DNA of 64,000 bases from contig NZ_PDKN01000006.1 of assembly GCF_004116335.1 (NCBI RefSeq), forward strand, positions 1 to 64,000, written 5' to 3'. Shown in pieces: positions 18,730 through 62,330 of this stretch. The notes under the pieces are model-generated. The model saw only the letters and a list, made by a program, of their open reading frames with translations. It was not told the origin of the DNA and made no database searches. Position 1 is the first letter of the stretch. Each line of letters begins with the position of its first letter. Source of the stretch: Candidatus Marinarcus aquaticus (GTDB taxonomy: Bacteria > Campylobacterota > Campylobacteria > Campylobacterales > Arcobacteraceae). The position numbers and the translations under genes are program-made.

Positions 18730-18805
18730 GGCTCGGTAGCTCAGTCGGTAGAGCAAAGGACTGAAAATCCTTGTGTCGGCAGTTCGATTCTGCCCCGCGC
18801 CACCA
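18730..18805 (+). tRNA. tRNA-Phe (GAA)
   Basis: 76-nt cloverleaf including an encoded CCA. The anticodon loop is ctGAAaa on a ggact/aatcc stem, with T-loop ttcgatt. The acceptor strands GGCTCGG and CCGCGCC leave a T4-C69 mismatch. First in a five-tRNA cluster leading to tuf. Confidence 0.95.
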
Positions 18806-18822
18806 TTAAGTTTTTGTTGGGT

Positions 18823-18899
18823 GCTGGTGTAGCTCAGTTGGCTAGAGCAGCTGATTTGTAATCAGCAGGTCGGGGGTTCAACTCCCTTCACCAGCTCCA
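18823..18899 (+). tRNA. tRNA-Thr (TGT)
   Basis: 77-nt cloverleaf with acceptor GCTGGTG/CACCAGC, anticodon loop ttTGTaa on a ctgat/atcag stem, and encoded CCA. Confidence 0.97.
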
Positions 18900-18964
18900 T
18901 TTTTAACTGTCGTGCGTAGTCTTTATAAAAGATCAGCGCTTGACCAGAACAATAATTTTTCAAC

Positions 18965-19049
18965 GGTGAGGTTGGAGAGTGGTCAAATCCAGGAGACTGT
19001 AAATCTCCCGCCTATGGCTTCGAAGGTTCAAATCCTTCTCTCACCACCA
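18965..19049 (+). tRNA. tRNA-Tyr (GTA)
   Basis: 85-nt class II tRNA with acceptor GGTGAGG/TCTCACC, anticodon loop ctGTAaa, a long variable arm around cccgcctatggctt, and encoded CCA. Confidence 0.96.
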
Positions 19050-19058
19050 CGTAATGTT

Positions 19059-19135
19059 GCGGGAGTAGCTCAGTTGGCTAGAGCCTCTGCCTTCCAAGCA
19101 GATTGTCGCGAGTTCGAGTCTCGTCTCCCGCTCCA
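19059..19135 (+). tRNA. tRNA-Gly (TCC)
   Basis: 77-nt cloverleaf with acceptor GCGGGAG/CTCCCGC, anticodon loop ctTCCaa, T-loop ttcgagt and encoded CCA. Confidence 0.97.
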
Positions 19136-19248
19136 TTATTTTTTTATTGATACTGGGAGCTGAGTTATAGACGCAAAAATTTATAACTCCATTTTCTACA
19201 AAATGTAAACTCCAAGTATAACTTTTAAATATGTTTAGTCCAGCGTAT

Positions 19249-19323
<75 letters not shown>

Positions 19324-19359
19324 TGATGTAATGGACATATTTAAATTTACAAACCAATC

Positions 19360-19400
19360 CCCTCTGAATAGATCAGCCTTAGGCTTATCTACTCAGAGGG
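19360..19400 (+). promoter_or_regulatory. Leader hairpin between tRNA-Thr and tuf
   Basis: ccctctga (19360-19367) pairs with tcagaggg (19393-19400), extended inward by tagat/atcta and capped by agcc/ggct. The stem lies 30 bases before the tuf ATG, with no T run after it, so it is more likely an RNA processing or stability element than a terminator. Confidence 0.55.
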
Positions 19401-19430
19401 CAATTTAATAAATCTTTTAAGGGGAATTTT

Positions 19431-20639
19431 ATGGCAAAAGAAAAATTCGAGCGAAGTAAACCGCACGTTAACATTGGTACAATTGGTCACGTTGACCACG
19501 GTAAAACGACTTTAACAGCTGCTATTACTATGTGTTTAGGGCTTAAAAACGGTCAAGCTACTATGGACTATGATCAAATTGATAACGCTCCAGAAGAGAG
19601 AGAAAGAGGAATTACTATTGCTACTTCTCACGTTGAGTATGAAACTGAAACTAGACACTACGCACACGTAGATTGTCCAGGTCACGCCGATTACGTTAAA
19701 AACATGATTACTGGTGCTGCACAAATGGATGGTGCTATCTTAGTTATTGCTGCTACAGATGGACCAATGGCTCAAACTAGAGAGCACATTCTATTATCTA
19801 AACAAGTAGGTGTTCCATACATCGTTGTATTCTTAAACAAAGAAGACCAACTTGATGAAGAAGATAAAGAAGAGATGTTAGAGTTAGTTGAAATGGAAGT
19901 AAGAGAATTACTTTCTGAGTATGACTTCCCAGGTGACGATACTCCAATCGTAGCTGGTTCTGCATTCCAAGCATTAGAAGAAGCTAAAGCTGGTAACGCT
20001 GGTGAGTGGTCTGAAAAAATCTACAACTTAATGGCAGAAGTAGATGCTTATATTCCAACTCCAGAAAGATCAACTGATAAAGATTACTTAATGCCTGTTG
20101 AAGATGTATTCTCAATTGCAGGTAGAGGTACAGTTGTAACTGGTGCTATTAACCAAGGTACTGTTAAATTAGGTGATACTATTGAAATCGTTGGATTAAG
20201 AGATACTCAAACTACTACAGTTACTGGTATTGAAATGTTCAGAAAAGAAATGGATTACGCTGAAGCTGGTGATAACGCTGGTATCTTATTAAGAGGTATT
20301 AAAAAAGAAGATGTTCAAAGAGGACAAGTTCTTGTTAAGCCAGGATCAATCACTCCACACACTAAATTTAAAGGTGAGGTATATATCCTTTCTAAAGAGG
20401 AAGGTGGACGACATACTCCATTCTTCTCAGGATACAGACCACAATTTTATGTAAGAACAACAGACGTAACTGGTTCTATTGAACTAGCTGAAGGTACTGA
20501 AATGGTAATGCCAGGTGATAACGTAGAAGTTACTGTTTCTTTAGTTGCTCCAATCGCTCTTGAAAAGGGAACTAAGTTCGCTATCAGAGAAGGTGGTAGA
20601 ACTGTTGGTGCGGGTGTTGTTGCTGAAATTATCGAGTAA
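19431..20639 (+). CDS. tuf: Elongation factor Tu
   Basis: A 402-residue translational GTPase that delivers aminoacyl-tRNA to the ribosome. G motifs: GHVDHGKT (P-loop), RGITI in switch [14 protein letters not shown] and GSAF, followed by the two beta-barrel domains. AAGGGG lies at good spacing before the ATG. The tRNA-tuf-rpmG-trnW-secE-nusG order is classical. Codon choice is strongly biased, as expected for one of the most abundant proteins. No second tuf copy is seen beside fusA in this window. Confidence 0.98.
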
Positions 20640-20648
20640 GGATAACTT

Positions 20649-20819
20649 ATGGGTAATGGCGTAAGCATCAAAATTGGACTTAAATGTGAGGAGTGTGGTG
20701 ATATTAACTACTCTACTTACAAAAACCCAAAAACTCACACTGAGAAAATGGCGATTAAAAAGTACAGTCCAAGATTAAGAAAACACACAATTCATAAAGA
20801 AGTTAAGTTAAAGTCGTAA
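20649..20819 (+). CDS. rpmG: 50S ribosomal protein L33
   Basis: A 56-residue L33 (start [18 protein letters not shown], end [12 protein letters not shown]) encoded 9 bases after tuf, with AAGGAT as ribosome site. The first zinc-ribbon pair CEEC is kept, but the place of the second pair reads [10 protein letters not shown], so two of four zinc ligands are absent. L33 binds 23S rRNA near the E site. The gene is too short to be found by length-filtered ORF calling. Confidence 0.95.
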
Positions 20820-20847
20820 GACTTTAACTTACTCTTTTTTTACAGCA

Positions 20848-20923
20848 AGGTCAGTAGCTCCAATGGTAGAGCGCCGGATTCCAAATCCGATGGCTGGGGG
20901 TTCGAGTCCCTCCTGGCCTGCCA
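20848..20923 (+). tRNA. tRNA-Trp (CCA)
   Basis: 76-nt cloverleaf with acceptor AGGTCAG/CTGGCCT, anticodon loop ttCCAaa on a cggat/atccg stem, and encoded CCA. It lies between rpmG and secE, the usual place in this phylum. Confidence 0.97.
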
Positions 20924-57783: not shown

Positions 57784-59892
57784 ATGGCTAGAAAAACACC
57801 ACTCAGTAAAGTTAGAAACATTGGTATTGCTGCACACATTGATGCGGGTAAAACTACAACAACAGAAAGAATTTTATTCTACACGGGTGTATCACACAAA
57901 ATCGGTGAGGTTCACGACGGTGCAGCTACAATGGACTGGATGGAGCAAGAGCAAGAGAGAGGTATTACAATTACTTCTGCTGCGACTACTTGTTTCTGGA
58001 AACACCCAAAGACTAATGACCAACTACAAATTAACATCATTGACACTCCAGGGCACGTTGACTTCACAATTGAAGTTGAGCGATCTATGAGGGTTCTTGA
58101 TGGTGCAGTTGCAGTATTCTGTTCAGTTGGTGGAGTTCAACCACAATCTGAAACAGTTTGGAGACAAGCGAACAAATATAGAGTACCAAGAATGATTTTC
58201 GTTAATAAAATGGACCGAACAGGTGCAGATTTTTATAACGTTGAAAAACAAGTTGCTGAAAGATTAGGAGCTAACCCAGTTCCTGTTCAATTACCAATTG
58301 GTGCTGAAGAGAACTTCCAAGGTATTGTTGATTTAGTACAAATGAAAGCTATTGTTTGGGACGAAGATGCAGCAATGGGTTCAAGCTACCATGTTGAAGA
58401 GATTCCAGCAGATATGATGGATAAAGCGACTGAATACCGAGAAAAAATGGTTGAAGCAGCAGCTGAGGCTTCTGAAGAGTTAATGGAAAAATACTTTGAA
58501 GAGGGTGACTTATCTGAAGATGAAATCATTGCAGGTCTTAAAAAACAGTGTTTAGCAATGGCTATTACACCAATGACTTGTGGTACAGCATTTAAAAACA
58601 AAGGTGTTCAAACTTTACTTGATGCAGTTGCACTTTACTTACCAGCTCCAACTGAGGTTGCTGATATTCGAGGTGAGACTCAAGATGGTGAAGCTGTTAT
58701 TGTTCCTTCTTCTGATGAAGGTGAAGTGGCAGCATTGGCATTTAAAATTATGACTGACCCATTTGTTGGACAGTTAACATTTACAAGAGTTTATAGAGGT
58801 GTATTACAATCTGGTACATACGTATATAACTCTACAAAAATGAAAAAAGAGAGAATCGGTCGATTACTTAAAATGCACTCAAACAACAGAGAAGAGATCA
58901 CAGAGTTATATGCTGGTGAAATCGGTGCAGTTGTTGGTCTTAAATCGACAATTACAGGGGATACTTTAGCTAGTGAAAAAGATCCAGTTATCTTAGAAAG
59001 AATGGAATTCCCTGAGCCAGTTATCTCTGTTGCAGTTGAGCCAAAAACAAAAGCTGACCAAGAGAAAATGGGTATTGCTTTAGGTAAATTAGCTGAAGAG
59101 GATCCTTCATTTAGAGTTGCAACAGACGAAGAATCTGGACAAACTATTATCTCAGGAATGGGTGAGTTACACCTTGAAATTCTAGTTGATAGAATGAAAA
59201 GAGAGTTCAAAGTTGAAGCTGAAGTTGGTGCTCCACAAGTTGCATACAGAGAAACCATTAAAAATGCTGTTAACCAAGAGTACAAATATGCGAAACAATC
59301 TGGTGGTAAAGGTCAATACGGTCATGTATACTTAAAAATCGAGCCATTAGAGTCTGGTAGCGAAGAAAACTTTATTTTCAACAACGAAATTAAAGGTGGG
59401 GTTGTACCAAAAGAGTATATTCCTGCAGTTGAAAAAGGTTGTGCAGAAGCTATGGCTGGTGGTATCCTTGCTGGTTACCCAATGGTTGATATCTCTGTTA
59501 CACTGTATGACGGTTCTTACCACGACGTGGATTCATCTGAAATGGCATTTAAATTGGCTGCTTCTATGGGATTCAAACAAGGGTGTAGAAGTGCTGCAGC
59601 AGACGCAGTTATCTTAGAGCCAATCATGAAAGTTGAAATCGAAACTCCAGAAGAGTACATGGGTGACGTTATTGGAGATTGTAACAAACGAAGAGGACAA
59701 GTTCAATCAATGGACGACAGAGCTGGTGTTAAATTAGTTACTGCAATGATTCCATTATCTGAAATGTTCGGTTACTCTACAGACTTAAGATCTATGTCTC
59801 AAGGTAGAGCAACATACTCTATGTTATTTGATTCATATTTAGAAGTTCCTAAAAACGTTTCTGAAGAAATCATCAAAAAGAGAAATGGTTAA
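57784..59892 (+). CDS. fusA: Elongation factor G
   Basis: A 702-residue translocase GTPase. It shows [15 protein letters not shown] (P-loop), [11 protein letters not shown] (switch I), DTPGHVDFT (G3), NKMDR (G4), and domain IV with [15 protein letters not shown] and the C-terminal [10 protein letters not shown]. All five EF-G domains are present. It is last in the str operon; tuf is not adjacent, being encoded 38 kb upstream in this window. A strong terminator follows. Confidence 0.98.
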
Positions 59893-59932
59893 TAGCGTAA
59901 AATAAAAGCCAATTTCTTGGCTTTTATCGCTA
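59893..59932 (+). terminator. fusA terminator
   Basis: 11-bp stem ataaaagccaa/ttggcttttat (59902-59912/59917-59927, loop tttc), with an outer tagcg/cgcta extension starting at the fusA stop. Confidence 0.8.
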
Positions 59933-59976
59933 TTAACGAGCTTTTCGATGTTCCTTTTAGGAACCGAAAAGGTCCG
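59931..59976 (+). repeat. Structured tandem repeat, copy 1
   Basis: Begins tattaacgagc. cttttcg (59941-59947) pairs with cgaaaag (59965-59971) and gttcc (59950-59954) with ggaac (59960-59964), separated by an AT bulge on the 5' side; ends gtccg. The core is repeated 124 bases later with a compensating loop change. An intrinsic terminator (59980-60043) follows directly, so it may be the 5' part of a short RNA. Confidence 0.75.
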
Positions 59977-59979
59977 GAA

Positions 59980-60043
59980 GGGCGTATGCTAACTTCACAG
60001 TTGGCGCGATAGAAAAGGGTGTGCGTTTAGCATGCCCTTTTTT
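59980..60043 (+). terminator. Terminator after repeat copy 1
   Basis: gggc-(gt)-atgctaa (59980-59992) pairs with ttagcatgccc (60027-60037), enclosing a 34-base loop and followed by six T (60038-60043). Confidence 0.7.
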
Positions 60044-60054
60044 AATGTTAAGTT

Positions 60055-60099
60055 TATTAACGAGCTTTTCGATGTTCTGGAAAGAACCGAAAAGGTCCG
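60055..60099 (+). repeat. Structured tandem repeat, copy 2
   Basis: Same order as copy 1: tattaacgagc, stem cttttcg (60065-60071)/cgaaaag (60088-60094), inner stem gttc/gaac (60074-60077/60084-60087), end gtccg. The stem bases are conserved, while the apical loop differs in sequence (tttta against tggaaa), as expected for a selected RNA or DNA hairpin. Confidence 0.75.
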
Positions 60100-60110
60100 T
60101 TCCTTAGAAA

Positions 60111-60138
60111 AAGCTCAGCCGAAAGGCTGGGCTTTTTT
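60111..60138 (+). terminator. Terminator after repeat copy 2
   Basis: 10-bp stem aagctcagcc/ggctgggctt with GAAA tetraloop and six T. Confidence 0.9.
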
Positions 60139-60383
60139 ACTTTAGAGTCAAGACAATTTCTTATGCTCTATGAACTTATTGTAGGTCATAAACTCTTCTT
60201 GGAACGGGACAATATAAGCTATCTTTTCAGATATATAAATCAATTCGTAAAGAAAATAATATTATAATATTAATATAAGTTATAAAATTATCAAAAATCA
60301 CCATTTAAAAACATGAGATATTTAGAGGTTGTTTATCTAAACTTAGTTAGAATAGCCCTAAATTATGAGAAGAAAGAAGAGAA
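60139..60383 (+). promoter_or_regulatory. Upstream region of the type I secretion operon
   Basis: AT-rich non-coding stretch with a candidate -10 TAGAAT (60348-60353) 30 bases before the start, and AAGAAGAGAA as a weak ribosome site. No other feature was recognised. Confidence 0.4.
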
Positions 60384-62330
60384 ATGCGAAAAAGTGTATT
60401 ATTGCTTTTATGTTTTGTAAGTTTGCACGCTACAACCATCAAAGAAGCAATCCAAAGCGCTTTAGTCAATAACCCAGAGATTCAATCCTTACAATCCAAT
60501 ATGAAGGCGTACAGGCTCTATGTCGATGAAGAACAAGGAAGTTATTTGCCTGTCATTTCACTGGATGCGTATTTAGAAGATAAGCAGACCATCAAAGAGT
60601 TTTATGACGGTCGAGATAAAACGGAATTGGATCAAAACGGTTATAATATTATGTTGATGCTTGACCAAACCATTTATGATGGAGGCTTAACCAATGCCAA
60701 AGTAAGTGAAGCAAAGTTCAATTATAACAAAACACGGATTGAAAATATTGCCAAAATTGAAGATGCAGTTTTTACGGTCACTGAGAGTTATTTGAACCTT
60801 GTAAAATATGAAGAGCTGGAACAATTGTCAAAAAATAACCTTGAAGTGCATGAAAACTACTTAACCATTGCACGAGACAGTGAAGCGGTCAGTGGTGAAG
60901 TGCTTGACAGGATTCAAGTGGAATCAAAACTGAGTTACGCACAATCTAAATATATTCAGATGAAAACCGACAAAGAGGGTGCAAAAAGTACCTTTGAAAA
61001 AATGACAGGACGAAAACCAGAAGGTTTTATTTGTAGACCCAATATTGATGCTTCAAAAGTGCCTGAATCTTTAAAAGAGAGCATCAATGCAAGCTTGAAA
61101 TTTAATTATGATATCTTGGCGCAAGTGGAAGCTTTGAATGCTCAACGAGAGGTTTTAAACCAAGAGAAGTCTCGATTTTTGCCGGTGCTTTCTGTGCAAT
61201 TGTCTGAAGAGATTGATAAAGAGTTGGAAGATGAGGGAATAAAATCAACAATCACCAGTGCAAAGTTAAAGTTGAGTTATACGCTTTTTAATGGTTTTAA
61301 AGATAAAGCGGTGTATGAGCGAGAGCGAATCTTCTTAAAAGAGTCGCAAGAGGTGTTAGATGATACGACCAATGCGGTTATTGAGCAGGTCAAGATTGCC
61401 TATAATACTTATGTGAATACACAAGAAAAAGTACAATACCTTAAAACCTATGTAGCAAAAAATAAAGAGATTCTTAAAATCTATAAAGAGCAGTTCTTGG
61501 GTGGAACACGAACCTTTATTGATATTTTAAATAATGAAGCAGAACTTTTCAGAGCCAAAACAGAACTCATAGAAGAGCAGTTTACAATGTACACGGCGTA
61601 TTACCAACTTATGATGCTCTCAAGTCGATTGAGTGATACGATTGTCGCTACACAAACACAAGAGTGTCAAAAAATTGAAGTGGACACTGAAGAGGCGCTT
61701 TCAATGGATCAATTAGGTTCAACAGAGAATGAATTGGAAGGGTTATTGCAAGAGAGTGTGGGGAATAAAGGCAGTGATGATCTTTCTGGTTTATTGCAAG
61801 AAAAACCTGAACCTGTTGTGAATGAAGAGGAGCAAAAAGAGCTTCAAATCAATGAGATGCTTGATAATTTAATGAATGAAATCTATGAAGGTAAAAAAGA
61901 GAAATCAACACTTCAACCTGAAGAGAATAAAGCCTTTAAAGAGCAAATGAAAGAGTTTAATATCGATTTGACCAATGATACATCTTTGTCAAGTACAATA
62001 TTGCGAAAGCATCGTGTATACTCACTTAAAGATGTGATTTCAAAGAAAAAAGGTGAATATTATACGATTATTTTAGCAACGGTTAATCCAAGTTTGAATT
62101 ATGAAAAATTCATCGAGGATAACAATATTAAACACAATGCCGTGGCGTATCGCTTTGGACAAAAAGATAAGTATGTTAAAATTATTTATGGAGCATATAA
62201 AACATATGAAGATGCTTTTGACTCATTGATAAAACTCGATACCAATCTTTTAGCCAATAAGCCTTATGTCGAGAGAGTAGATAAACACATCAGACTTTTT
62301 TATAAATACAGTAATGTGATTGAGGAATAA
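60384..62330 (+). CDS. TolC-family outer membrane secretion protein fused to a C-terminal SPOR-like domain
   Basis: A 648-residue protein with signal peptide MRKSVLLLLCFVSLHA, then a TolC/OEP body (about 18-425) of two repeated helical hairpin halves (IKEAIQSALVNNPEIQSL; LDQTIYDGGLTNAKVSEAKFN; LSYTLFNGFKDKAVYERE). After an acidic linker (about 430-540) comes a SPOR-like domain (about 555-645) with YYTIILATVNPS, VKIIYGAYKTYEDAFDSL and a final PYVERVDKHIRLFYKY. TolC proteins of LapE/AggA type pair with LapB exporters, and the next gene encodes one. The C-terminal extension is not part of E. coli TolC and could bind peptidoglycan or the adhesin. Confidence 0.9.
   Translation: MRKSVLLLLCFVSLHATTIKEAIQSALVNNPEIQSLQSNMKAYRLYVDEEQGSYLPVISLDAYLEDKQTIKEFYDGRDKTELDQNGYNIMLMLDQTIYDGGLTNAKVSEAKFNYNKTRIENIAKIEDAVFTVTESYLNLVKYEELEQLSKNNLEVHENYLTIARDSEAVSGEVLDRIQVESKLSYAQSKYIQMKTDKEGAKSTFEKMTGRKPEGFICRPNIDASKVPESLKESINASLKFNYDILAQVEALNAQREVLNQEKSRFLPVLSVQLSEEIDKELEDEGIKSTITSAKLKLSYTLFNGFKDKAVYERERIFLKESQEVLDDTTNAVIEQVKIAYNTYVNTQEKVQYLKTYVAKNKEILKIYKEQFLGGTRTFIDILNNEAELFRAKTELIEEQFTMYTAYYQLMMLSSRLSDTIVATQTQECQKIEVDTEEALSMDQLGSTENELEGLLQESVGNKGSDDLSGLLQEKPEPVVNEEEQKELQINEMLDNLMNEIYEGKKEKSTLQPEENKAFKEQMKEFNIDLTNDTSLSSTILRKHRVYSLKDVISKKKGEYYTIILATVNPSLNYEKFIEDNNIKHNAVAYRFGQKDKYVKIIYGAYKTYEDAFDSLIKLDTNLLANKPYVERVDKHIRLFYKYSNVIEE

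Follow-up and report, generated by a model that had tools for sequence, protein, structure and literature searches.

Two hairpin units behind fusA in Candidatus Marinarcus aquaticus, probably parts of a dispersed REP-like palindromic repeat

The two units and the element they belong to

The window analysed here, a stretch of 64,000 nt from the Candidatus Marinarcus aquaticus genome (contig NZ_PDKN01000006.1, positions 1-64,000), carries two similar hairpin-forming units downstream of fusA, the gene for elongation factor G (EF-G), raising the question of what kind of element they represent. A preliminary description of the sequence had offered three options, namely twin small RNAs, a tandem cis element, or a DNA hairpin repeat. 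The positions of the units (59931-59976, 46 nt, and 60055-60099, 45 nt) were confirmed, and the repeat described there was borne out: the units are identical over 23 and 16 bases at their two ends, and their alignment scores 35, compared with a maximum of 15 in 1000 shuffles, while the rest of the window outside this region gave no score above 15 for such a repeat. Both units fold alike, into a 7-bp stem, a 2-nt AT bulge and an inner stem of 4-5 bp, with a z-score of about −6 for the fold of the element plus its terminator. Behind each of them come a terminator-like hairpin and a T-run, and folding of 59931-60050 and 60055-60140 supports the intrinsic terminators that had been proposed at these places. 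The window also holds a 5S rRNA gene (2-117) and six tRNA genes (18730-20923), all of them ordinary.

The start of the first unit had to be revised: rather than beginning at 59931, this unit continues a stronger hairpin at 59889-59936, which includes the fusA stop codon. We denote this upstream hairpin H1 (fold z-score −7.7 for the segment 59890-59938, with a structure backed by compensatory changes) and the hairpin of the unit itself H2. Downstream of fusA in other Arcobacteraceae the parts follow in the same order, with H1 on the stop codon, ACGAG, H2 with its 2-nt bulge, and GTCYG, and this recurrence indicates that the window units are the H2 half of a two-hairpin element. Two covariance models were used for the element, R1 first and then R2. 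The features of the locus are as follows.

57784-59892, + strand: fusA (EF-G), from the open reading frame list; its stop codon, 59890-59892, lies inside the 5' arm of hairpin 1
59889-59978, + strand: complete element, copy 1 (H1, ACGAG, H2 and GTCCG); R2 match at 85.9 bits, E = 2.7e-14
59889-59936, + strand: hairpin H1; outer arms 59889-59896 and 59929-59936, inner stem 59903-59912 with 59917-59926
59937-59976, + strand: hairpin H2 of copy 1 (the first unit); stem 59941-59947 with 59965-59971
59948-59949, + strand: AT bulge of this H2, followed by its inner stem (59950-59954 with 59960-59964) and then GTCCG, from the fold
60013-60043, + strand: terminator-like hairpin and T-run after copy 1, from the fold of 59931-60050
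60042-60101, + strand: copy 2, an H1 remnant and a complete H2 (60055-60099); R2 match at 37 bits, E = 9.6e-4
60108-60138, + strand: terminator-like hairpin and T-run after copy 2, from the fold of 60055-60140

Copy 2 is a truncated duplicate of copy 1, missing most of H1. We found fusA in 95 of 101 Arcobacteraceae genomes and took the 3' ends of 60 of these 95 loci; by eye, 15 of the 60 carry the element, and all 15 copies are matched by R1 at E ≤ 0.05 and 14 of them by R2 at E ≤ 0.01. The unpaired motifs GTTAAG, ACGAG and GTCYG are conserved in the family, as is the 2-nt bulge. Some subfamilies may possess a third hairpin 3' of H2 (L170-L173, L178, L180, L113, L154 and L162), for example TACCGAAAGAGAG..GGGTTAA or GTGAACTAG..GTATC.

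The stems covary strongly in both hairpins. Five fusA copies aligned with MAFFT, without regard to structure, have 98.0% of 152 cells paired and both sides changed in 12 of 31 pairs, compared with at most 50.7% of cells paired when the partners are slid by 1-3 columns. A model-fitted alignment of 69 matches, which leans towards the structure, has 94.4% of 1727 cells paired and both sides changed in 29 of 30 pairs; its slid versions reach at most 48.9%. The covariance search recommended in the preliminary description has thus yielded homologues with covarying stems. The argument made there, that kept stems and differing loops point to selection on structure, gains support from these relatives but not from the window itself, since the outer stems of the two copies are identical and the pair alone shows identity, not covariation.

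No described structured RNA family matched in a search of Rfam 15 at curated and permissive thresholds, in keeping with the earlier statement that no known riboswitch could be recognised. The best permissive match, BTnc231, was rejected, as it scored 30.8 bits against a cut-off of 80.4; it covers 59986-60138, a segment made up of both terminators and copy 2.

Distribution and placement at gene ends

The possibility that the repeat is confined to the fusA site was rejected, as R2 found seven copies in this genome at E < 1e-3 (ten matches at E ≤ 1). Their hosts are fusA (two copies), groEL (assigned by reading its sequence end), the genes for glycyl-tRNA synthetase alpha, ribosomal protein S9 and a transport permease, and a gene whose protein has no Pfam match. 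The R2 searches covered samples of the family, the order and the phylum. They retrieved the element in 64 of the 101 Arcobacteraceae genomes (205 matches at E ≤ 0.01), in 79 of 248 genomes at the order level (E ≤ 1e-4), and in 23 of 200 genomes at the phylum level (E ≤ 1e-6), every one of these 23 from the order of the window. Many dispersed copies had been named in advance as the sign of a repeat family, and this is the pattern seen, both in the seven copies here and in the 64 family genomes. Genome-wide copy counts are lower bounds, since only 18-44 candidates per genome were scored. In named bacterial and archaeal genomes the exact H1 pattern occurs in seven stretches, all in the same phylum (their titles name Campylobacterales, Epsilonproteobacteria, Sulfurovum, Arcobacter and Nautiliaceae), and among viral contigs there were six pattern matches, none of them confirmed by the covariance model.

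Near-identical copies can be found at separate places in one genome (L135, L136), and tandem arrays also occur. Single copies exist elsewhere as well, including copies between rpsG and fusA (L106, L138), which indicates that the element itself is no terminator. The picture of tandem copies, each with a terminator of its own, therefore holds in the window but not in general.

The repeat family sits on gene ends in a nearly fixed orientation, with the stop codon in or beside H1. In 41 of 61 placements a same-strand upstream frame has its stop within 20 nt of the first base of the element, and in 23 of these 41 within 1 nt; the mirror arrangement was seen in 1 of the 61. For random positions the respective values are 4.6% and 9.8%. 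These 61 are the distinct placements with enough flank, orthologous sites included, after 16 short-flank placements were set aside. The identified host genes are mostly housekeeping genes: a Pfam run matched 19 of 20 host proteins, among them EF-P, S9, GroES, NusG, GMP synthase, MnmE, NuoH, ATP synthase c, YchF, ThiC, HypD, QueC and FabI, and the EF-G, S7 and GroEL hosts were recognised from their sequence. Presence at orthologous sites is sporadic (15 of 60 fusA 3' ends and 3 of 30 fabI loci).

A few copies lie off gene ends, two of them in a CRISPR-like array (L142) and some near rRNA-like genes (L129-L131, judged by sight). The two in the array (genome G007, L142:495-576 and L142:1094-1174) look identical, and each stands in place of part of a spacer and a repeat. 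The genome of L129, L130 and L131 (G097) has six near-identical copies, and the three that were inspected share flanks that by sight resemble an rRNA operon.

Filled and empty sites and the level of pairing

The gene fabI allows sites with and without the element to be compared. Among the 30 loci read out of 100, 27 are without it, and 20 of those 27 encode proteins ending in NGTDK; the three with the element (L189, L211 and L215), together with L116 from another search, all end in NGTDR. At the filled sites the host sequence GGTACAGAC or GGCACAGAC joins the CGTTAA of the element, and ACTGAT or ACAGAC appears again behind it, with 4 of 6 letters of this target repeat agreeing in three cases and 6 of 6 in one. 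The 5' arm of H1 matches the end of the gene in relatives that lack the element, and the 3' arm that pairs with it lies inside the element. Comparison of filled and empty fabI therefore suggests that the 5' arm of H1 is host sequence, that the element supplies the complementary 3' arm, and that about 6 bp of the target are repeated behind it. Visual inspection for terminal inverted repeats of the MITE type at fabI, a site where the element can be delimited on both sides, showed no matching ends.

With all 74 placements taken together, the target repeat reaches significance but is weak (mean best match 5.72 vs 5.34, sd 0.07), and tandem copies contribute to it. In a single genus of a different family, represented by L172, L173 and L177, the element is located within the 5' portion of a gene (starting MVEVGQKAPEF or similar), and the direct repeats on either side of it, about 60-72 bp long, take in the start codon. 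Long target duplications were rejected as a rule, being found only at these three loci, tandem copies and the CRISPR-like array aside.

We then considered whether the stems behave like paired DNA or paired RNA, using for the G-T, stop-codon and double-change counts the best 81 of the 97 rows of an alignment, A4 (77 distinct; the 16 dropped rows were weaker, some of them on the opposite strand of another copy). At the consensus pairs, 31 of the 2098 pairs formed are G-T (1.5%), compared with 57 of 660 (8.6%) in 55 terminators from 61 fusA 3' ends, and with 9 of 124 (7.3%) for the tRNAs of the window; by free folding the share is 2.9% in H1 and 3.4% in H2. In the inner stem of H1, G-T is no commoner than A-C (4 vs 5), as expected if DNA pairs or if copying renews the pairing; the outer stem of H1 has 9 vs 8, and in H2 G-T exceeds A-C (18 vs 4). 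The rarity of G-T pairs suggests that pairing is kept at the DNA level or renewed by copying. Copies differing at 1-4 pairs show 74 double changes vs 8 single changes to G-T and 15 to a mismatch, an excess that exchange between copies could equally yield. Together, the pairing data favour a DNA-level explanation, short of proof.

As for candidate enzymes, the Y1 transposase family is absent from this genome and was found in 30 of the 101 family genomes. The element is present in 27 of these 30, vs 37 of the 71 genomes without Y1 (odds ratio 8.3, p = 2.4e-4, uncorrected for kinship or genome size), and no copy lies near the eight Y1 loci searched. For reverse transcriptase as a driver we saw no association with the element over genomes (odds ratio 1.17).

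Known systems, origin and possible role

The element shares several traits with REPs and BIMEs, which PMC3733652 presents as short imperfect palindromes that are dispersed, often in tandem or grouped, and near gene ends; of the GTAG and CGTC superfamilies treated there, GTAG REPs are described as often contributing the stop codon to the gene beside them. As with REPs, the copies are dispersed palindromic repeats mostly outside genes, though they are few per genome. Unlike REP/BIME, the element has two unlike hairpins in fixed order, stands in nearly one orientation to genes, reaches only 205 matches in 64 genomes, and has one arm matched to host sequence. Inspection by eye revealed no constant foot tag of the REP kind (unpaired GTAG/CGTC, or TGTC, CCTC), the feet of H2 reading CGAG..GTCYG, TGAC..GGC, ACC..GGG or GGC..ACC.

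REPs at stop codons are also found in E. coli, where the original work is reportedly a paper in Mol Cell. PMC12306157 describes E. coli REPs that lie no more than 15 nt from a stop codon as a class that may lower translation; the element likewise places a hairpin directly behind the stop codon, and differs in that the stop codon often lies inside the outer stem. HRC-4, a motif named in an analysis of Arcobacter sp. L (PMC6429828), is likewise small, structured and from the same bacterial group, and may or may not be identical with the element. Our literature search of open-access papers recognised no other published Arcobacter or Campylobacterota repeat of such a kind.

The ends of IS200/IS605-type elements (Y1, HUH) are imperfect bulged hairpins read as single-stranded DNA with the help of short guide sequences, and these elements are not known to create a target repeat on insertion. 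The present element is similar in its imperfect hairpins with a bulge, and differs in its apparent target repeat and in the absence of a Y1 gene from this genome. In integrons, attC sites contain pairing RYYYAAC and GTTRRRY boxes next to gene cassettes; GTTAAG(T) of the element fits the latter box, and the former was not found by eye. Domain V of group II introns was rejected: its topology is similar to that of the complement of H2, but its AGC triad and GAAA loop are absent.

On balance, we lean towards the reading in which the units are H2 halves of a REP-like palindromic repeat with two hairpins, dispersed in Campylobacterota and probably once mobile, that is carried as a structured 3' tail of the fusA mRNA. 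Copies would arise by insertion of a small DNA element, mobile now or formerly, whose single strand folds into hairpins, and insertion would leave a short repeat of the target. The arms may be kept perfect either because a putative enzyme recognises the DNA hairpin or because they are corrected by copying templated on the hairpin. At fusA, one copy could have entered at the stop codon, ahead of the terminator of the operon, and a later duplication of H2 together with a terminator may have left the truncated copy 2. The family would thus have spread by insertion and been tolerated or favoured on stop codons; when transcribed, the outer stem of the fusA copy is predicted to compete with the terminating ribosome.

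Several observations speak against a mobile repeat. The 41-to-1 orientation need not be shown by a passive DNA repeat, and the identified genes are nearly all housekeeping; further, Y1 is absent here and no copy lies near the eight Y1 loci searched, the overall target repeat is weak, G-T exceeds A-C in H2, free folding puts G-T at 2.9-3.4%, and there are fewer copies per genome than is usual for a REP. What argues most for a role in the transcript is the near-absolute orientation, and such a role is central to an alternative that we regard as possible, if rather doubtful, namely a selected cis-acting 3'-UTR RNA element through which housekeeping mRNAs would be tuned in their translation termination, stability or 3' processing. 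Since H1 begins on the stop codon, the terminating ribosome would open the outer stem and have the inner hairpin at its edge, and H2 might act as a protein- or ligand-binding hairpin. Besides the same-strand stops and the housekeeping hosts, this alternative would account for the conserved unpaired motifs and bulge, and it accords with the lowered translation reported for E. coli REPs near the stop codon (PMC12306157); it fits poorly with the sporadic presence at fusA and fabI, with the copies away from gene ends (L142), and with the small number of G-T pairs.

It is highly unlikely, in our estimate, that the copies are recombination or attachment sites read as folded single-stranded DNA, whether attC-like or akin to the sites where integration takes place at the 3' end of a conserved gene. 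Copies do lie at the 3' ends of guaA, mnmE, rpsI and groEL, which we take to be integration sites of genomic islands, and the 60-72 bp direct repeats at L172, L173 and L177 would also agree with such sites; however, no island or cassette adjoins the copies read, the right end has no constant box, and there are two hairpins. Least probable of the readings weighed here is a pair of twin small RNAs, each transcribed separately downstream of fusA and ended by its own terminator. A terminator hairpin does follow each unit, but a promoter scan of the + strand over 59800-60500, covering part of the Campylobacterota promoter types, found no sigma-70-type site, so that the separate RNAs of 110 and 85 nt suggested earlier are unsupported; moreover, the fusA stop codon falls within H1 of the first unit, many unrelated genes carry homologues at their ends, and copy 2 is without most of H1. 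Among the three options offered at the outset, the dispersed repeat has thus gained ground and the twin small RNAs have lost it.

There is some chance, which we consider small, that this is a new kind of small mobile element, one that finds its target through base pairing: its variable arm of 7-8 nt would pair with the host sequence that directly precedes the point of insertion, around the stop codon, and some of the target would be repeated behind the element. The arm would then be a guide or a fresh imprint of the target, so that each copy records its entry site, and the matched arm makes such an insertion rule testable by sequence comparison. If the family is as it seems, unrelated housekeeping genes of the Campylobacterales (those for EF-G, ribosomal proteins, chaperonins and FabI) can share a hairpin pair on their stop codons, providing a compact test case for the spread of small palindromic repeats without an obvious transposase and for the effect of a stop-codon hairpin on expression.

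At three loci (L135, L136 and L165; genome G054) the copies sit inside a larger repeat; its halves, of the form GTCACTGCGAGG and GGATTGCTTC, presumably resemble REPs of the CGTC type.
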